A program made the position numbers and the translations under genes. From positions 1 to 64,000 of the IMG/VR virus record IMGVR_UViG_3300032293_001706: a stretch of DNA of 64,000 nt; one strand, 5' to 3'. The notes beneath the pieces were generated by a model. It was not told the origin of the DNA. It saw nothing but the letters and a program-made list of their open reading frames with translations, and searched no databases. This DNA comes from a virus. Shown in pieces: positions 424 through 41,976 of the stretch (within the stretch, counting starts at the first letter, position 1; the number at the start of each line of letters is the position of its first letter).

Positions 424-1128
424 TTATTTATTTTTACAATTTTCAAAATGCCATCTATACATTAACCCTTCACCACCTTCTTTACCACAATATGGACAAA
501 TTATTTTTTTTCTTGGTATCCCTTTAGTTTTTGATGGTTTTCCTTTTTTCGATTCACTTATTTTTCTTTTTGTATTCTCACTTTTATTTTTACCTGGATT
601 GTTTTCAGTAAAATATTTTTTTCTATACTCCTTAAACTCATCACTACGTGTTTTTCCATACATAGGATTTAATTTGCCAACGTATTTACCTTTCATAGAT
701 TGACTTTGTTTTGGTCTTTTTTGACCCTTATTTGATTTACTAATTTTATCCCCAATTTCTTTGGCTCTTTTCTCACCAAATCGTTCAATGAAGGTTTTAT
801 TTGAATATAATTTTTTATATTTTTCTTTTATTTCCCCTGATGGGTTATTTAAACCATCACCTCCATCAGTCATATTAACTAAAATACCTTCATTCAAATC
901 TTTTCTACCATAAATTTTAATCCAATATTTTTCCCTTTCAGATGCGTCTTCCCAAGATAAATTATCTTCGATTATTTCAAATTTAAATCCAACTTTTTTA
1001 ACGATAAAATTCCAATACCTATTCCTACTTTTTTTATCAGATGCTCTTTTGTAATCAGTATCACTACCAATACCAACATAAAAAATCTGATTATTGTCAT
1101 TTCTTTTGTGGATATAAACGTACGCCAT
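424..1128 (-). CDS. GIY-YIG homing endonuclease inserted in the RNA ligase gene
   Basis: The N-terminus has the GIY-YIG pattern (VYIH at residues 4-7, FYVGIG about ten residues later), followed by an E/R-rich region (WEDASEREKYWIKIYG). The central and C-terminal parts carry NUMOD3-type DNA-binding motifs (GKLNPMYGKTRSDEFK; KISESKKGKPSK), and the protein ends in a zinc-finger-like CPYCGKE...HFENCK. This is the layout of I-TevI/Seg-type phage homing enzymes. It lies exactly between the two ligase pieces, with about 50 nt before and 7 nt after it, too little flank for a group I intron core outside the ORF. It is therefore more likely a free-standing gene that split its target. A late-type motif precedes its start. 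Confidence 0.9.
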   Translation of the reverse strand: MAYVYIHKRNDNNQIFYVGIGSDTDYKRASDKKSRNRYWNFIVKKVGFKFEIIEDNLSWEDASEREKYWIKIYGRKDLNEGILVNMTDGGDGLNNPSGEIKEKYKKLYSNKTFIERFGEKRAKEIGDKISKSNKGQKRPKQSQSMKGKYVGKLNPMYGKTRSDEFKEYRKKYFTENNPGKNKSENTKRKISESKKGKPSKTKGIPRKKIICPYCGKEGGEGLMYRWHFENCKNK

Positions 1129-18187: not shown

Positions 18188-18190
18188 AAT

Positions 18191-18433
18191 ATGGCAATAT
18201 TAAGAGAAGAAATTAAGGGTTCAGTTATTTACAACATTGTTAAGTCATCAAATATTATTGAAAGCGCATATAATGTTGATACAAAGAAAATGACAGTAAA
18301 ATTTAATAATGGTATGGAGTATGAATATAATGAAGTACCACACGAGATGTATGTCCAATTCAGATTGGCCGAATCCCAAGGAAAATTTTTTTCGTCAAAA
18401 ATAAGTAAAAATTATGAATATAAGAAATTATGA
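18191..18433 (+). CDS. KTSC domain protein
   Basis: 80 residues from ATG 18191, chosen over the upstream ATG at 18164, which lies within the preceding terminator hairpin. Residues about 19-78 form a KTSC domain (SSNIIESAYNVDTKKMTVKF, YEYNEVPHEMYVQF, ESQGKFFSSKI). KTSC domains are common in phages and bacteria and are often fused to RNA-related enzymes; the stand-alone form has no established role. A late-type motif precedes it and the array-bearing gene follows 21 nt later. Confidence 0.82.
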   Translation: MAILREEIKGSVIYNIVKSSNIIESAYNVDTKKMTVKFNNGMEYEYNEVPHEMYVQFRLAESQGKFFSSKISKNYEYKKL

Positions 18434-18454: not shown

Positions 18455-20611
18455 GTGATTGAACAGGAAAAACTTGATTTGGTATTTGAATTATTAGATG
18501 ATTTTACATCTGATGGGAAACTATATTATGATGATGAATCGGAATCCATATGGATGATAAATCCAGATACAAAAGAATGGATATTTGAATTAACAAAAAC
18601 AGGTCGTTTATGGTATTATAATCCGATTTTTAGTGAAATTTTTAAATACGTTTTTATAGAATATCCTGATTTTAAACCGTATATAACAAAGTGGGTTGAA
18701 AGAATCCTTCAAAAAGAGGTTAAATACACCGATGTGGATTCTCATCAGTTGCGCAATCGAGTTGAAAGAATCCTTCAAAAAGAGGTTAAATACACCGATG
18801 ACGTTTCCGTAACGCACCACGGAAAAGTTGAAAGAATCCTTCGACGAGATAATAATTCGGATTCAGAAGAAAACATCAATGAAAGTGAAGAACCGTCATC
18901 AGTTGATGAGGATTTGGTATTTGAGTTATTAGATGATTTTACATCTGGCGGAAAGTTATATTATGAAGATGAAACGGAAACCATATGGATGATAAATCCA
19001 GATACAAAAGAATGGATATTTGAATTCGAAAAATCAGGAGATTTATGGTATCATTATAAAGTTTTTGAAAGTATTTTTAAATACGTTTTGATGAAACATA
19101 CTGAATTTTTTCCATATATAACAAAGTGGGTTGAAAGAATCCTTCAAAAGGATATTGAAGATATCGGTTTCGTTTCCCAAATGCGCCACCAGAAAGTTGA
19201 AAGAATCCTTCAATCAGGAACCGAATTAAATTCAGAAGAAAACATTAATGAAAGCGAAGAACCATCATCAGTTGATGAAGATTTGATATTCGAATTATTG
19301 GATGACTTTACATCTGATGGAAAGTTATATTATGATGATGAATATGACTCCATATGGATGATAAATCCAGATACAAAACAATGGATATTTGAATTCAAAA
19401 AATCAGGAAATTTATGGTATTATTATCCAGTTTTCGTTAAAATTTTTAAATACGTATCGATGGAATACCCTGATTTTAACCCGTATATAACAAAGTGGGT
19501 TGAAAGAATCCTTCAAAAGGAGGTTAAAGACACCCAAAGCCTGCGCATTCCTGTGATTGGCATTGTTGAAAGAATCCTTCAAAAGGAGGTTAAAGACACC
19601 TATCGATTTCGATTCCGAAATGAAGCGTATGTTGAAAGAATCCTTCAAAAGGAGGTTAAAGACACCAAAACGCGTAATGGAATACACCGAAGTACAGTTG
19701 AAAGAATCCTTCAAAAGGAGGTTAAAGACACCACAGAGCTGGAAGACCTTTCCATCAAATACGTTGAAAGAATCCTTCAATCAGGAACCGAATTAAATTC
19801 AGAAGAAAACATTAATGAAAGTGAGAAAATGAAAAAAACAAATTTAATGGGTACAATACTAAAAAGTTTTGAGATTAGAGATTCTTTACCTTCAGAAATT
19901 TGGTACAACCCTGATGGAAAATCCGTTAAAGATAGTAATGCTGGTGATTTAAAATTAAAACCTGAAATTAGACAACGTTTACTTGAAATTGCCGAGTTAT
20001 TTGTTGATTATATAAAATTGGACATGTTTGTCAATGATATTGTTATTACAGGTTCCTTACTTAATTATAATTGGTCCGACTATTCAGATTTTGATTTACA
20101 CGTTATAACATCATTAAGTAATTATCAAGAAAATGAAGAAATTTATAAAGAATTTTTTAAATTAAAGAAAAACTCATTTAATTTAAAACACGACATAACT
20201 GTGAAAGGGTATGATGTTGAAGTTTATGTTGAAGATAGTGATAATGAAAGATTTTCTTCAGGGGTTTATTCAATAATAAATGATAAATGGGTGAATGTTC
20301 CGAAAAAAGAAAAAGCAACGATAGATTTAAACAAAATTAAAGAAAAAACAAATCAATGGATGGAATTAATTGATAATTTAATTGATACCGCAAACGATGA
20401 AGATATCTATGTTGTAAAATCTTTATTTGACAAATATGGTGAAAAATTAAAAAATTTTAGGACTGCAGGACTAAAAAAAGGTGGAGAATATTCATATGAA
20501 AACTTGGTTTTCAAGGTTTTAAGAAGGAATGGTTATTTAGATAAATTCAGAAATGCTGCTGATAAAATCATAGATAAACAATTAACCTTAAAAGAAAGTG
20601 AAATATTTTAA
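18455..20611 (+). CDS. Array-bearing ORF 1: triplicated domain with CRISPR-like inserts and nucleotidyltransferase C-terminus
   Basis: 718 residues from GTG. Three copies of an 80-residue domain (FELLDDFTSDGKLYY, SIWMINPDTKEWIFE, FKYV, PYITKWVER) each run straight into a CRISPR-like array translated as VERILQKEVKDT plus ten variable residues. Each array ends in VERILQSGTELN or VERILRRD, followed by an acidic linker ENINESEE to the next copy. From residue about 460 a different domain begins: VITGSLLNYNWSDYSDFDLH at 531-549 is the GS-x10-D-x-D signature of the nucleotidyltransferase superfamily, followed by DVEVYVED (third acidic residue). INE sites could be cut by the prohead protease. Paralogue at 40054 on the other strand. 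Confidence 0.75.
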   Translation: MIEQEKLDLVFELLDDFTSDGKLYYDDESESIWMINPDTKEWIFELTKTGRLWYYNPIFSEIFKYVFIEYPDFKPYITKWVERILQKEVKYTDVDSHQLRNRVERILQKEVKYTDDVSVTHHGKVERILRRDNNSDSEENINESEEPSSVDEDLVFELLDDFTSGGKLYYEDETETIWMINPDTKEWIFEFEKSGDLWYHYKVFESIFKYVLMKHTEFFPYITKWVERILQKDIEDIGFVSQMRHQKVERILQSGTELNSEENINESEEPSSVDEDLIFELLDDFTSDGKLYYDDEYDSIWMINPDTKQWIFEFKKSGNLWYYYPVFVKIFKYVSMEYPDFNPYITKWVERILQKEVKDTQSLRIPVIGIVERILQKEVKDTYRFRFRNEAYVERILQKEVKDTKTRNGIHRSTVERILQKEVKDTTELEDLSIKYVERILQSGTELNSEENINESEKMKKTNLMGTILKSFEIRDSLPSEIWYNPDGKSVKDSNAGDLKLKPEIRQRLLEIAELFVDYIKLDMFVNDIVITGSLLNYNWSDYSDFDLHVITSLSNYQENEEIYKEFFKLKKNSFNLKHDITVKGYDVEVYVEDSDNERFSSGVYSIINDKWVNVPKKEKATIDLNKIKEKTNQWMELIDNLIDTANDEDIYVVKSLFDKYGEKLKNFRTAGLKKGGEYSYENLVFKVLRRNGYLDKFRNAADKIIDKQLTLKESEIF
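18695..18842 (+). CRISPR. CRISPR-like array 1A inside ORF 1 (2 full repeats, 2 spacers, truncated end repeat)
   Basis: Repeats at 18695-18730 and 18761-18796 are identical 36-mers starting GTTGAAAGAATCCTTC and ending AAATACACC. Spacers at 18731-18760 and 18797-18826 are each exactly 30 bp, 47% and 50% G+C. The end repeat at 18827 keeps only its first 16 bases. Compared with array 1C the repeat differs at positions 21 and 31 in both copies, so repeats are homogeneous within the array. No cas gene lies in the window. Confidence 0.6.
19130..19213 (+). CRISPR. CRISPR-like array 1B inside ORF 1 (1 repeat, 1 spacer, truncated end repeat)
   Basis: The repeat at 19130-19165 is conserved for its first 23 bases and diverged at the 3' end. 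The 30-bp spacer at 19166-19195 is 50% G+C. The end repeat at 19196-19213 keeps 18 bases and then enters the linker. The spacer is about two-thirds identical to the second spacer of array 1A. Confidence 0.5.
19499..19780 (+). CRISPR. CRISPR-like array 1C inside ORF 1 (4 identical repeats, 4 spacers, truncated end repeat)
   Basis: Four perfect 36-bp repeats at 19499, 19565, 19631 and 19697; four unrelated 30-bp spacers at 19535-19564, 19601-19630, 19667-19696 and 19733-19762; the end repeat at 19763-19780 keeps only 18 bases. The repeat contains the hairpin TCCTT-caa-AAGGA. The 66-bp period keeps the frame. The 36/30 geometry, GTTG start and ACACC end resemble class 2 arrays of Bacteroidota (type VI-B repeats run GTTG...ACAAC), but the type cannot be assigned. 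Confidence 0.68.
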
Positions 20612-22502: not shown

Positions 22503-23373
22503 CATAGGTTCAAAAATAGAAAAACTAATAGCTGATGGATTCAGTTATAATACACTAAGAGGGTTATCTGAAGCTCAAGTTAATTTGTTGTATAATAGAT
22601 TGGTTGAGCAAACAGCACCACCAAATACAGAAATTATTAAGAAAAATACAACAACATATAAAGTAAAACCAAATGCCAAGACAATGATTGGTAATTTGGA
22701 GATTGACACGACAGGTGGGTCGACAAAAGTTACTCCAATGGAAGAAGAAACTTTGAATGTTGTTGATGACCCAGACGCAACTGAAGATGGCATGGGGATG
22801 TTTGAATCTGAAATTTCAGAAAAATTTGAATCTAAAAAACAACAAAAATATTTTTGGTGGAAATGTAATAGTTCAAAAAGTGAAAAGGCAAAGAAAAAAT
22901 GGTGTAAATGGGCTGAAGAGTTTTCAAAAGACACTAATTTCAAAAAACTTCCAGAAAAGAAAAGAGATGTTAAAAAGATTGAAGAGAGCTTGACAAAGTT
23001 AATTGAAAATCGTATACCTCAATCTATAACAAAAAAGAATCTTATGGATTTAATTGAATCATCAACAAGAACTAAGGAAGCACCGACAAAAACTCCAACC
23101 AAGACTCCGACAAAAAGTCCTGGAAAAGGAAATCCTTTTAAGATTCCAACACCAGCTCAGAAACCAGGTCCAAAGGCTGAGGTTAAAGAAGGAGGTTCAA
23201 GCGCACCTGCAAAAGCACCGACAAAAACTCCAACCAAGACTCCGACAAAAAGTCCTGGAAAAGGAAATCCTTTTAAGATTCCAACACCAGCTCAGAAACC
23301 AGGTCCAAAAATGAAGGCACCAAGTTGGTTAAGTTATAACGCATTTATTAACTCAGGTTACAAATTAATATAA
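22495..23373 (+). CDS. Structural-operon protein with duplicated Lys/Pro/Thr-rich tail
   Basis: 292 residues. A helical start (GFSYNTLRGLSEAQVNLLYN) is followed by a beta-like segment, a Trp/Cys/Lys-rich helix (FWWKCNSSKSEKAKKKWCKW) and a basic Pro/Thr/Lys tail containing two copies of KAPTKTPTKTPTKSPGKGNP and the bases that follow (97-bp perfect DNA repeat). The tail may bind DNA or act as a flexible tether. Overlaps its neighbours, so part of one translational unit. Confidence 0.68.
   Translation: MSNIGSKIEKLIADGFSYNTLRGLSEAQVNLLYNRLVEQTAPPNTEIIKKNTTTYKVKPNAKTMIGNLEIDTTGGSTKVTPMEEETLNVVDDPDATEDGMGMFESEISEKFESKKQQKYFWWKCNSSKSEKAKKKWCKWAEEFSKDTNFKKLPEKKRDVKKIEESLTKLIENRIPQSITKKNLMDLIESSTRTKEAPTKTPTKTPTKSPGKGNPFKIPTPAQKPGPKAEVKEGGSSAPAKAPTKTPTKTPTKSPGKGNPFKIPTPAQKPGPKMKAPSWLSYNAFINSGYKLI
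23078..23309 (+). repeat. 97-bp perfect direct repeat inside the 22495 gene
   Basis: Copies at 23078-23174 and 23213-23309, offset 135 bp, in frame. Identity without synonymous drift points to a recent duplication. Confidence 0.9.
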
Positions 23374-27975: not shown

Positions 27976-30972
27976 ATGGCAGATAATTATACAATATGGC
28001 AAAGACTTACAAGGGTTTTTGGTCCTGATTCAACATTAGGTCAACAACCTCCTGTATATAAGTTTGATAAAAAAGAACTTCTTAAAACAACTGACAAACA
28101 AGAATATGAAAAAGAGAAGTTACAAGCACAACAAAGTTACTATTTAGGTCAACAGTGGGCAAAGATTGAAAACAATTTATATACCCAAGCAATATATTAT
28201 GAACCAACAAGATTAGCGTCATATTATGATTACGAATCGATGGAGTTTTCGATTGCTGGGGATACAAAAATTGCAACACCTGATGGTTTTATAACAATAA
28301 AAGAGTTGGCGGATAAGGGTAGAGATTATGAATTTGTAACTTACGCTTATGACCACAACTTAAATAAAGTGGTTCCCGCAAAAGCAAGAAACGCCCACTA
28401 TACAAGAGATGAGATGACTTATAAAATAACATTTGACGATGGTAGTCATATTATTGCGACATATGGTCATAGATTTTTGAAACGTGATGGTGTGTTTTGT
28501 GAAGTTGAAAATTTGAAACCCGGAGATTCAATGATGCCATTTTATAGAAAATCATTCTATGCAAATGAAAAGTATAATTGGGTTTATACTTGTAATAAAA
28601 ATGAAGGTCATAATGGATGGATTAGTGAACATAATTTAATAGCTGAGTGGTTCTATGATAAGAAAGTATTAGAAGATGAAGAAGTTCATCATATAGACTT
28701 TAATGGTAAAAATAACTTACCTGAAAATTTACAAATAATGAAAATTTCAAAACATAGAGCATATCATGCTAGATTAAACAATGAAAAACTTTGGTCGAAT
28801 CCTGAATATAGACAAAAAATGTCTGAAACGGCAAGACGTAAAGGTAAGTTAAAATGGGACGGAAAAAGAAAAGGTCAAAATAATCCTTCATATATTAAAT
28901 TGTCATTTAACTTATTAGTTAATACCGCAAAAGAATATAGGACTTTAGAAAAAACGTCAAAAGTTTTAGGGGTATCAATCAAAAAAATACAAAATGAATT
29001 AAGATTTAATGGGTTCAAATGTTGGGATGACTTTTTAAAATTTTATAATCTTAAAAAATATCATAAAAATACTGAAAATTATGAATTATTAGATTTTAAA
29101 CTAATACCTTGGGACTTACTTATTGATACCGCAAAGAAGGGAAAAACAATGCAAAATGTTTGTGATACTTTAGGAATTACTTTTGGTAAATTAAGGTCGA
29201 CAATAAGACAAGGAGGGTATAGAAATTGGACAACATTTATGGATGCGTATGGTTTAGAATATGGTAAAGTTGGTAGAAAAAAACCAGTTGAATCTAATTT
29301 ATTAAATCATAAAATAGTATCTATTGAACCTTATGGCGTTGTACCTGTTTATGATTTAACAGTTCCTGGATACAAAAATTTTGCAACCGATACCATCTTT
29401 TCACACAATACTCCTGAAATATCAACTGCTTTAGATATTTACGCTGAAGAATCTACAACAACAAATGAAGATGGATACATATTACAAATATATTCAGAGT
29501 CTTCACGTATAAAAGGAGTTTTGGCTGATTTATTTAATAATAGGTTAGATATTAATACTAACCTACCAATGTGGACTAGAAACACCTGTAAATATGGTGA
29601 CAATTTTGTATACTTAAAACTTGACCCTGAAAAAGGAATTGTAGGTTGTCAACAACTACCAAATATTGAAATTGAGCGTTTGGAAAGGGGTATGAAGATA
29701 AAACCTTCACATAGTACATCTGAAGATGCAAAATCCTTAAAATTTGTATGGAAAGTTAAGGATATGGAGTTTAATACTTGGGAAATTGCCCACTTTAGAT
29801 TATTGGGTGATGACAGAAAACTTCCGTATGGAACAAGTATGTTGGAAAAAGCAAGAAGAACTTGGAAACAACTATTACTTTCTGAAGATGCAATGTTAAT
29901 TTATAGAACATCAAGAGCACCTGAAAGAAGAGTATTTAAAATATTTGTTGGAAATATGGATGATAAAGATGTTGAACCATATATCCAAAGAATTGCAAAT
30001 AAATTCAAACGTGACCAAGTTGTTGACCCAAAAAGTGGTAATGTTGATTTACGTATGAATCAAATGGCTGTTGACCAAGATTTCTTTATTCCTGTCCGTG
30101 ATGCCGCACAAACAAGTCCAATCGAAACATTACAGGGAGCACAAAATCTGTCTGAAATTGCCGATATCGAATACATTCAAAAGAAATTACTAACAGCATT
30201 ACGTGTTCCAAAAGCGTTTTTAGGTTTTGAAGAAGTTGTTGGTGATGGTAAAAACTTGGCATTACAAGACATTCGTTTTGCAAGAACAATCAATAGAATC
30301 CAAAAATCAATGATTCAAGAGTTAAATAAGATTGCAATTATTCACTTGTTCATATTAGGGTTTGAGGATGAATTAACAAACTTTACATTGGGTCTAACAA
30401 ATCCATCAACACAGGCAGATTTGTTAAAAATTGACACTTGGAAAGAAAAAATCACTTTATATAAAGACGCAGTATCCGACCCAGGTCTTGGAATACAACC
30501 AGTTTCCGCAACTTGGGCAAAGAAACATATTCTTGGATTTTCTGATGAAGAAATTAAGTTGGATATTCAACAACAAAGAATTGAAAGAGCGGTAGGCGCC
30601 GAACTTCAAAAAACCGCTGAGGTTATTATTCATACAGGCTTGTTTGATAATATTGATAAGTTATATGGTAAAAAACCTGGTGAAGCGGCTGGAGAAGCAC
30701 CTCCGACAGGTGGTGAACCATCAGATATGGGTGGTGGACCTCCCGATATTGGTGGTGGTGGACCTCCCGATATTGGTGGTCCTGAAGGAATGGAAATGCC
30801 AAGCGCTCCAACAGGAGGACCTGAATTGGCACCTGAATCAAAACTTGAAAAAGATATGAATTTAATTCTTGAAGATAATATGATAACAGGTGTTGATGAG
30901 ATTGATTTATCAAAAGGAAGGAAATCTTTATTGGAGATTGAAAATAAATTAGATGATTTATTAAATAAATAA
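27976..30972 (+). CDS. Portal protein (T4 gp20 type) with intein
   Basis: 998 residues, of which 92-478 are an intein; the spliced portal is about 611 residues. Extein parts: LGQQWAKIENNLYTQAIYYE upstream and TPEISTALDIYAEE downstream, which join to the gp20-like SMEF-TPEIS-ALDIYA region, then APERRVFKIFVGNMDDKDVE, the stem and crown part, and a Gly/Pro-rich tail (GGGPPDIGGGGPPDIGG) before a short acidic C-terminus. The portal is the twelve-fold ring at the packaging vertex. The tail repeat is longer than in T4 and may interact with scaffold. Confidence 0.94.
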   Translation: MADNYTIWQRLTRVFGPDSTLGQQPPVYKFDKKELLKTTDKQEYEKEKLQAQQSYYLGQQWAKIENNLYTQAIYYEPTRLASYYDYESMEFSIAGDTKIATPDGFITIKELADKGRDYEFVTYAYDHNLNKVVPAKARNAHYTRDEMTYKITFDDGSHIIATYGHRFLKRDGVFCEVENLKPGDSMMPFYRKSFYANEKYNWVYTCNKNEGHNGWISEHNLIAEWFYDKKVLEDEEVHHIDFNGKNNLPENLQIMKISKHRAYHARLNNEKLWSNPEYRQKMSETARRKGKLKWDGKRKGQNNPSYIKLSFNLLVNTAKEYRTLEKTSKVLGVSIKKIQNELRFNGFKCWDDFLKFYNLKKYHKNTENYELLDFKLIPWDLLIDTAKKGKTMQNVCDTLGITFGKLRSTIRQGGYRNWTTFMDAYGLEYGKVGRKKPVESNLLNHKIVSIEPYGVVPVYDLTVPGYKNFATDTIFSHNTPEISTALDIYAEESTTTNEDGYILQIYSESSRIKGVLADLFNNRLDINTNLPMWTRNTCKYGDNFVYLKLDPEKGIVGCQQLPNIEIERLERGMKIKPSHSTSEDAKSLKFVWKVKDMEFNTWEIAHFRLLGDDRKLPYGTSMLEKARRTWKQLLLSEDAMLIYRTSRAPERRVFKIFVGNMDDKDVEPYIQRIANKFKRDQVVDPKSGNVDLRMNQMAVDQDFFIPVRDAAQTSPIETLQGAQNLSEIADIEYIQKKLLTALRVPKAFLGFEEVVGDGKNLALQDIRFARTINRIQKSMIQELNKIAIIHLFILGFEDELTNFTLGLTNPSTQADLLKIDTWKEKITLYKDAVSDPGLGIQPVSATWAKKHILGFSDEEIKLDIQQQRIERAVGAELQKTAEVIIHTGLFDNIDKLYGKKPGEAAGEAPPTGGEPSDMGGGPPDIGGGGPPDIGGPEGMEMPSAPTGGPELAPESKLEKDMNLILEDNMITGVDEIDLSKGRKSLLEIENKLDDLLNK
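28249..29409 (+). mobile_element. Intein with HNH homing endonuclease in portal gene
   Basis: 387 residues beginning SIAGDTKIATPDGF (Ser1, block A), with block B TYGHRFL, block F VVPVYDLTVPGYKNFA and ending TIFSHN before Thr+1. The centre holds an HNH-type endonuclease (SEHNLIAEWFYD, VHHIDFNGKNNLPENL, ISKHRAYH) and two helix-turn-helix-like repeats (LLVNTAKEYRTLEKTSKVLG; LLIDTAKKGKTMQNVCDTLG). It is inserted in the most conserved part of the portal, as usual for phage inteins. Ser1 and Thr+1 instead of Cys should still splice. Confidence 0.92.
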
Positions 30973-40053: not shown

Positions 40054-41976
40054 TTAACAATATGGTGGTGAACACCTTTTTTTACCATCCAATCCTTTAA
40101 TTTTACCTTTACATACTTGTACGGCGAAACCATTTGCATATGCAGAGGGGTAAACGTCAAATTTTGCTTTTGCTGCCGACTTTCCTCTTGAACATAATTT
40201 TGTTCCTGTTTTCTTTTTTCCTTCACTTATTTGAGGTAAAACTTTATCCAATACAGTTTCAGGGTCTTTATATGTATTTAATTTCTTTTTCATTTCACCA
40301 ATATCTTTGATTGCCGCCAAATAAGGAACCATAGAATCTTTAACTTTATCACTGAAAGGTAAAACTTTACTAAGTTCGTCCAATACAGATTCTAAAGATA
40401 ATGATGTTAAAATTGGCATCCCAAAAACATTAAAAATTTTAAACCCTGGAATTGCCATTTCACCAGCCGATTGTAACATATCAATAAAATCAACCTTTAA
40501 TTCATCTTCAACTTTATCAAATTCTTCCAATAAATTTTCAATTTCTTCACCACTTTCAAATTTCTTCTTTAAATCATAATATTTTTCCATATCATCATTT
40601 AATTCAGAATAATTTAAAATTATTGATGCCGCACCGACAGGAACATTTAAACCAGGTATTGAACCTAAAGTTGCTCTTACTTTATCACCAACTATGTTTG
40701 AGAGAATACCTCTCCAATCAAAATCTTCATTTATATTTCTCATATCATCTTTATTTAATTTTATTTCTTTTTCTATTTGAATAGATTTATTGTCGTACCA
40801 ATTACTAAAAAATTCAGAAACGTTGTTGATTTCATCACTTCTGTTAACAGCCATTTGGATTGCGAATGGGGAACTAAATGTATCTCTTCGGGCTTTCTTA
40901 ATAGGTCTTTTAATAATACTTTCTACCCATTTTTTTATATAAGGAACATACTTAGGACTTTCCATTAAAAAATATTTAAAAAGAGTATCAAAAAAAGTAA
41001 TATTATAATCTAATACACCTGATTTTTGTAATATAAAAATCCATTCATTTTTTTCAGGGATTATCATCCATATTATTTCCGATGACTTATCATAATATAT
41101 TTTTCCTTCAGATGTATAAAATTTAATAAATTCAAGTATTAAATCTCCACTAATTTTTGGTAATTTATCTTCATTTATATTTCCCATATCATCTTTATTT
41201 AATTTTATTTCTTTACCTAATTTAAGGATATTATTAACATTCACAATTTCGGGAAGAGTTGGCCAAACAATATCTTTAACCTCCTTTTGAAGGGTTTTTT
41301 CAACCCACTTTTTTACATACGGAACAAAATCAGGGTATTCCATCGAAACGTATCTGAAAATACTCTTAAAAACTCTTAAAGAACACCATAGATTACCTGA
41401 ATCATATAACGCAAATACCCATTGATTTTTTTCAGGGTTTATCATATATATTGTGTCGTTGCTATAGTTAGAATATAGTTTTGTATCAGATGTAAAATCA
41501 TCTAATAATTCGAATATAATTTCTTCATCGACTAATCGTGATTCTTCACTTTCATTAATATTTTCTTCTGAATTTAATTCGGTTCCTGATTGAAGGATTC
41601 TTTCAACCGATAAATTGTTATCTTTAAGATTTTCATAAGTGTATTTAATCCCTTTTTGAAGGGTTCTTTCAACCGCATGGATGCCGCGTATTCCGAGAGG
41701 TTCGGCGTAGTTAACCTCCTTTTGAAGGATTCTTTCAACCCACTTTTTGATATACGGGTTAAAATCAGGGTATTCCATCGATACGTATTTAAAAATTTTA
41801 ACGAAAACTGAATAATAATACAATAAACGACCTGTTTTTGTTAATTCAAATATCCATTTTTTTGTTTTTGGGTTTATCATCCATATGGATTCCGTTTCAT
41901 CATCATAATATAACTTTCCATCAGATGTAAAATCATCTAATAATTCAAATATTAAATCTTCATTGATTTTTTCCAT
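40054..41976 (-). CDS. Array-bearing ORF 2: paralogue of ORF 1 with basic phage C-terminal module
   Basis: 640 residues. Three copies of the same 80-residue domain as in ORF 1 (FELLDDFTSDGKLYYDDETE, IWMINPKTKKWIFEL, KWVER). The first copy is followed by a CRISPR-like array with two spacers, the second by one repeat and one spacer, and the third by a decayed unit (VESIIKRPIKKA). Then comes a hydrophobic-helical region (VPVGAASIILNY, MAIPGFKIFNVFGMPILTSL). The C-terminus, LCSRGKSAAKAKFDVYPSAY then ANGFAVQVCKGKI, is a basic module seen in phage virion proteins. INE sites follow each linker. It differs from ORF 1 in its C-terminal domain, so the domain-array units have been combined with different effectors. 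Confidence 0.75.
   Translation of the reverse strand: MEKINEDLIFELLDDFTSDGKLYYDDETESIWMINPKTKKWIFELTKTGRLLYYYSVFVKIFKYVSMEYPDFNPYIKKWVERILQKEVNYAEPLGIRGIHAVERTLQKGIKYTYENLKDNNLSVERILQSGTELNSEENINESEESRLVDEEIIFELLDDFTSDTKLYSNYSNDTIYMINPEKNQWVFALYDSGNLWCSLRVFKSIFRYVSMEYPDFVPYVKKWVEKTLQKEVKDIVWPTLPEIVNVNNILKLGKEIKLNKDDMGNINEDKLPKISGDLILEFIKFYTSEGKIYYDKSSEIIWMIIPEKNEWIFILQKSGVLDYNITFFDTLFKYFLMESPKYVPYIKKWVESIIKRPIKKARRDTFSSPFAIQMAVNRSDEINNVSEFFSNWYDNKSIQIEKEIKLNKDDMRNINEDFDWRGILSNIVGDKVRATLGSIPGLNVPVGAASIILNYSELNDDMEKYYDLKKKFESGEEIENLLEEFDKVEDELKVDFIDMLQSAGEMAIPGFKIFNVFGMPILTSLSLESVLDELSKVLPFSDKVKDSMVPYLAAIKDIGEMKKKLNTYKDPETVLDKVLPQISEGKKKTGTKLCSRGKSAAKAKFDVYPSAYANGFAVQVCKGKIKGLDGKKRCSPPYC
41239..41304 (-). 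CRISPR. CRISPR-like unit 2B inside ORF 2 (1 repeat, 1 spacer)
   Basis: On the - strand a 36-bp repeat variant at 41269-41304 (GTTGAAAAAACCCTTC ... GATATT) is followed by a 30-bp spacer at 41239-41268 (43% G+C) and then a very degenerate end repeat (GTTAATAATATCCTTAAA). Confidence 0.42.
41590..41739 (-). CRISPR. CRISPR-like array 2A inside ORF 2 (2 repeats, 2 spacers, truncated end repeat)
   Basis: On the - strand repeats at 41704-41739 (first 29 bases identical to array 1C, different last 7) and 41638-41673 (several changes); 30-bp spacers at 41674-41703 (60% G+C) and 41608-41637 (20% G+C); end repeat of 18 bases at 41590-41607. The geometry is the same as in ORF 1, on the opposite strand 22 kb away. 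Confidence 0.52.

Follow-up and report, generated by a model that had tools for sequence, protein, structure and literature searches.

Gene 1, at positions 18455 to 20611 of the analysed DNA, belongs to a previously undescribed family of array genes carried by large, mostly uncultured phages. The family is best explained as one of protein-coding, CRISPR-like arrays, in which a translated peptide array is fed by CRISPR-like insertion of units, a reading to which we assign a probability of roughly 0.6. It is neither a CRISPR array serving Cas proteins nor an ordinary tandem-repeat protein. Translated repeat-spacer arrays were not found described in the literature, the coverage of which was thin for subscription journals, and an earlier description is possible.

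The window, i.e. the whole stretch of 64,000 nucleotides that was analysed, corresponds to bases 1-64000 of a virus record with a length of 190,552 bp. The record is that of a T4-like myovirus, as a terminase, a T4-type portal and a major head protein are present. The portal gene (T4 gp20 type, window 27976-30972) harbors an intein with a splicing domain at about residues 106-478 and an HNH endonuclease. A small ORF with a KTSC domain is located immediately 5' of gene 1 (window 18189-18433). The array family is represented in this record by the following features:

Gene 1, 18455..20611, + strand: 718 aa, GTG start; three tandem blocks of module and array, then a C-terminal nucleotidyltransferase-like domain
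Module 1A, 18476..18694, + strand: profile match at 18476-18730, E 8.6e-37
Array 1A, 18695..18844, + strand: units 18695-18760 and 18761-18826, then a terminal 16-18-bp repeat
Module 1B, 18908..19129, + strand: profile match, E 4.7e-33
Array 1B, 19130..19213, + strand: single unit with a partly degenerate repeat, terminal 18-bp repeat
Module 1C, 19277..19498, + strand: profile match, E 3.2e-38
Array 1C, 19499..19780, + strand: four units with identical 36-bp repeats, terminal 18-bp repeat
Nucleotidyltransferase-like domain fused to the arrays, 19952..20590, + strand: phrog_36119, E 1.1e-37; weak NTP_transf_2
Gene 2, 40054..41976, - strand: 640 aa, three modules; C-terminal domain matching phrog_27331
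Family genes of the same 190,552-bp record outside the window: 155007-156203; 156455-157525; ~189747-190552

The preliminary description of gene 1 had reported 36-bp repeats with 30-bp spacers, and this geometry was recovered with 30 bp in 7/7 spacers. The perfect repeats that it had counted, two in array 1A (18695-18730 and 18761-18796) and four in array 1C (starting at 19499, 19565, 19631 and 19697), agree with the coordinates, and the two sets differ at two fixed positions, 21 and 31. Array 1C harbors its inserts at 19535-19564, 19601-19630, 19667-19696 and 19733-19762, whereas the single repeat of array 1B spans 19130-19165. At the array ends the repeat is indeed kept only over its first 16-18 bases: the third copy in 1A, at 18827, has degenerated beyond its first 16 bp, and 18-bp terminal copies are located at 19196 in 1B and at 19763 in 1C. 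Hand counts of spacer G+C match the sequence (14, 15, 15, 15, 11, 12 and 13 of 30), and the inserts are higher in G+C than the surrounding gene, as had been stated. The arrays also lie in frame within a larger protein, the frame being open from 18455 to 20611. Gene 1 alone provides a sample of just seven inserts.

Gene 2, although inside the same window, and the three further family genes of the record were absent from the preliminary description. The units of gene 2 are located at 41739-41674, 41673-41608 and 41304-41239, with terminal repeats at 41607 and 41238. The gene at ~189747-190552 contains perfect VEDTIQNGVKNT units and extends past the record end. Together, the five genes hold eleven module copies. 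The repeat start of gene 1 recurs elsewhere in the 190,552-bp record; within the window, its first 16 bases occur 18 times with up to 3 mismatches, whereas 1.4 occurrences are expected and none of 100 shuffles gave more than 5. In a proline/threonine/lysine-rich ORF of the window, a 97-bp sequence occurs as two identical direct copies at a distance of 135 bp (window 23078-23174 and 23213-23309).

Profile and pattern searches of IMG/VR yielded 27, 73 and at least 119 stretches on contigs of up to 322 kb. The parsed family comprises 111 distinct array proteins with 1,109 units and a maximum of 29 units per protein. Units take the form VEDTIQNGVKxT followed by 10 residues, and the 36-bp family consensus repeat is GTTGAAGAYACCATTCAAAATGGGGTGAARNACACC. 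One 633-aa array was found in 15 records in two near-identical versions, which argues against assembly artefacts. Common to the whole family is an N-terminal module of about 73 residues that ends in YITKW and has no family match in Pfam, PHROG or cultured phages. An AlphaFold2 model, computed for the module from another gene in the window's phage, shows with confidence a helix, four strands and two helices (pLDDT 92), and had no match below E 0.3 in the PDB. The array itself was modelled as strands (pLDDT 70), whereas the first repeat is partly helical in the module model. The arrays of the window's phage are parts of fusions with other phage proteins, and those of relatives frequently stand alone. 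The linkers after each array in the array genes of G000 contain (I/L)xE-S motifs (NINESEE, LNESSP), which we take to resemble T4-type prohead protease sites. These motifs hint at a possible release of the module blocks by cleavage, or at their targeting to the capsid. In 55 related loci, e.g. at L133:1842-2141, an ORF close to the array encodes a protein of about 100 aa (..LQQLCKYIYDSSVMSYNGKTNPTKQ..) that lacks a Pfam match. This ORF is frequently adjacent to the array, at a median of 6 bases among distinct copies, and its product is a candidate partner and a first candidate for a linked inserting enzyme.

In relatives, the consensus repeat has 635 matches, of which 635 lie in frame within coding sequence, including two that are truncated at contig ends. 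The inserts show signs of selection at the protein level. Shared 30-mers have a pN/pS of 0.43 in the coding frame compared to 1.10 and 1.01 in the other frames, with a null value of 0.93. No in-frame stop occurs in 281 singleton inserts, whereas the other forward frames contain 101 and 152. This indicates that the inserts that remain are kept as peptides. Among arrays with 85-100% identical modules, whole units have been gained, lost, duplicated and swapped, with breakpoints within the repeats. In the orthologous arrays of L164 and L183, the inserts FKSWNNNITS and RRTRLNNITS have a common 3' half and thus a breakpoint inside the insert. Certain older inserts are longer conserved cassettes, one of which resembles part of the module (DVYHHKG). 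Recurring longer cassettes in L047, L105, L193 and others (TPSGYLGSIEMKGKIVHQIESPKQNNE, QPLPAQDGNRDWGNYYHR.., KTPGDGDIEST..) are conserved across phages.

The preliminary description had offered three options, and that of a hypervariable protein repeat was right. The other two, a functional mini-array that uses host Cas proteins or a decoy, are unsupported, as all arrays are coding and their inserts are selected as peptides, and neither Cas1, nor a CRISPR match in Rfam, nor a protospacer was found. It is accordingly very improbable that the arrays act as RNA like a virus-borne mini-CRISPR with host Cas proteins, or as a repeat decoy (Racr), with translation being incidental. Such elements exist and likewise consist of repeat-spacer units on viruses without cas genes, and the repeat geometry is consistent with them, as is a stem of five pairs in which the repeat types show two compensatory differences. 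However, virus-borne mini-CRISPR arrays have leaders and spacers against related viruses (PMC6858448), and Racrs are solitary repeats that give rise to non-coding RNAs (PMC10651486), whereas the phage arrays are long and coding, without a leader and without targets found.

Selection on peptides would also be expected of an ordinary tandem-repeat protein with disordered, hypervariable linkers, which arises by unit duplication, linker mutation and unequal recombination and in which protein selection alone keeps the 22-residue spacing. The conserved 12-residue motif, a pN/pS below 1 and the shuffling and duplication of units are in agreement with this explanation, and coding tandem repeats are known to yield false CRISPRs (PMC5294841), which share the repeat-spacer appearance within a reading frame. 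These false CRISPRs lack spacer diversity, whereas the phage array inserts are fully diverse and foreign-like. In addition, the way in which units appear to be born makes this explanation distinctly unlikely. Identity between neighbouring repeats was used as a proxy for unit age, on which all statistics for new units depend. Neighbours with 36/36 identity are exactly 66 bp (22 aa) apart in 48/48 cases, whereas neighbours below 27/36 identity show the 22-aa spacing in only 263/431 (Fisher p 3e-10). The newest units thus show the strictest spacing, and divergence hardly yields identical 36-bp repeats around unrelated 30-mers. Identity to the next repeat declines outward from the module in 80/95 arrays (p 3e-13); novel units are also found in mid-array, a departure from strict insertion at a leader end.

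The DNA of the repeat is conserved beyond its protein motif. Codon use was compared between 37 distinct active repeats from 49 arrays and the modules as background. The active repeats use GGG for Gly8 at a frequency of 0.90 (background 0.13) and ACC for Thr4 and Thr12 at 1.00 (background 0.34), i.e. their synonymous sites are nearly fixed on codons that are rare in the modules. In old repeats this bias is gone and codon use has drifted to background. The repeat also contains a palindrome with a five-pair stem and a CAA loop, in which 4.81 of 5 pairs are formed compared to at most 4.16 under synonymous recoding. In the window-type repeat the stem is kept via two double, compensatory changes that alter the protein, whereas one stem pair is broken in its 1A variant. 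The YITKW codons just upstream of the first repeat vary freely, and a DNA leader at this position was rejected due to the lack of synonymous constraint. An alternative to recognition by an enzyme is that fresh units circulate in a shared pool, which could also explain why the synonymous sites are frozen. Divergence of an ordinary repeat protein does not account for the spacing ruler, the frozen codons and the frame-blind nature of the inserts.

The last of these points follows from the composition of the new inserts, which have a G+C content of 0.43-0.47, genome-like dinucleotides and little likeness to the phage. Their G+C of 0.43 contrasts with 0.31 for 30-mers from their own phage (maximum 0.347 of 1000), and the values for TA (0.62) and AA (1.23) are genome-like and outside random expectation. 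A flat codon-position G+C does not in itself prove that the inserts are foreign, as the coding DNA in a genome with 45% G+C would show a similar pattern. Due to this ambiguity, a frame-blind amino-acid test was used in its place. In 103 new inserts the coding frame and the remaining five frames hardly differ in amino-acid composition (chi2 30, p 0.047), whereas the difference is strong in old inserts sampled at equal n (median chi2 205). The simplest reading is that new 30-mers would represent fixed-length foreign DNA captured irrespective of frame or strand. An origin of the inserts from their own phage genome was rejected, as no match occurs in 190 kb and the composition differs, and so was an origin from the non-array DNA of relatives, which gave no convincing match in 2 Mb.

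With regard to the 36-bp repeat, the uniform and unique 30-bp inserts, the palindromic repeat core, the position of the newest units towards one end and the degenerate last repeat, the arrays resemble CRISPR arrays. They differ in being wholly translated, with inserts retained as peptides, in lacking a DNA leader and, in the phages tested, Cas1, and in an exchange of units that also occurs in mid-array. No Cas1 was detected above the cut-off in 16 records including that of the window, and Rfam showed no CRISPR match above the curated score. A host CRISPR with the same 36-bp repeat might nevertheless donate units by homologous recombination, or host Cas1-Cas2 might insert spacers into the phage repeat, in which case the inserts would be true immune spacers that are incidentally translated. 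This would account for the 36+30 geometry, the palindromic stem, the polarity, the frozen repeat and the frame-blind foreign inserts, and would make a phage Cas1 unnecessary. However, the first 20 bases of the window's repeat, a variant and not the consensus, gave just three single matches in 84,980 bacterial and archaeal species genomes, and the matches to the consensus in plasmids are all partial and due to chance. Searches for protospacers were negative in cultured phages, with 54 inserts, and in exact scans of IMG/VR, with three inserts of the window; about fifty new inserts gave two chance matches only in plasmids, and no array was found outside a reading frame. A host CRISPR as the source of true spacers is therefore unlikely. 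The likeness to CRISPR arrays pointed out in the preliminary description holds for geometry, and it extends in relatives to polarity, the spacing ruler, a frozen repeat with a short palindrome and frame-blind, foreign-looking inserts, but it gives no support for a service to Cas proteins. The coding status and the absence of a leader and of Cas1 place the family outside CRISPR, yet it works like CRISPR at the birth of its units.

For the translated array fed by unit insertion, the following course is proposed. A new 66-bp unit would form when foreign genomic DNA, in a piece with a fixed length of 30 bp, is inserted beside a duplicated 36-bp repeat, by an activity that would recognise the repeat DNA and act mainly near the module-proximal (5') end. 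This step, which the anatomy of the arrays renders probable, would resemble spacer acquisition by Cas1-Cas2. As the phages tested lack Cas1, insertion may be carried out in trans by an enzyme of the host, or else by a phage enzyme that has escaped recognition. A GIY-YIG endonuclease was rejected as break-maker: its ORFs adjoin some arrays, yet half of the 16 records are without this family. A GIY-YIG endonuclease domain is located at window 901-1128. Since 36+30 is a multiple of three, each insertion would preserve the frame unless the 30-mer contains a stop. Recombination within repeats then causes loss, duplication and exchange of units between phages, a turnover demonstrated by comparison of array sequences. 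In the third step, which is likewise demonstrated, the arrays are open throughout and persisting 30-mers are under selection as 10-residue peptides; the repeats later drift in DNA, with much of the protein motif maintained. The product would be a scaffold in which as many as about 29 10-mers vary. This renewable repertoire of peptides is tentatively suggested to bind or distract proteins of the host or of rival phages.

Other known systems show partial likeness. Diversity-generating retroelements, which also occur in phages, likewise diversify peptides in a fixed scaffold. In the arrays, however, diversity consists of whole 30-bp inserts instead of point changes, and the inserts are unrelated to each other instead of being variants of one template. 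This candidate was rejected, as a reverse transcriptase (PF00078) is absent from 16 large records. Repeats of 22 residues are also known from large viruses in the form of FNIP/FGxxFN leucine-rich repeats, e.g. Crov588 (PMC9525666). The array matches an FNIP-type profile only weakly, over scattered stretches of about 20 bits, designed repeat proteins match too, and the LxxLxFGxxFN-type consensus would lie in the variable 10-mer. The match is thus a coincidence of period, and membership in the leucine-rich or armadillo repeats based on PDB profile matches was rejected on the same grounds. VIPR systems are also phage-encoded tandem repeats with variable parts, but their arrays make RNA with alternating GGY/NN motifs (PMC13142463), an architecture unlike that of the phage peptide arrays.

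The chances are about even that the arrays store a fixed-length uptake of foreign DNA as a translated, heritable and exchangeable peptide repertoire, possibly via diverted host spacer-acquisition enzymes. CRISPR finders will misread such coding array genes. If the proposed reading is true, spacer-like DNA capture would extend beyond RNA-guided immunity, and the same geometry could invent protein sequence. Captured DNA could be read from the arrays as from a record, and it would become testable from where the 30-mers originate, by which enzyme they are inserted and to what the peptides bind. Phages would thus possess a fast route of protein diversification besides mutation and retroelement-driven hypermutation.
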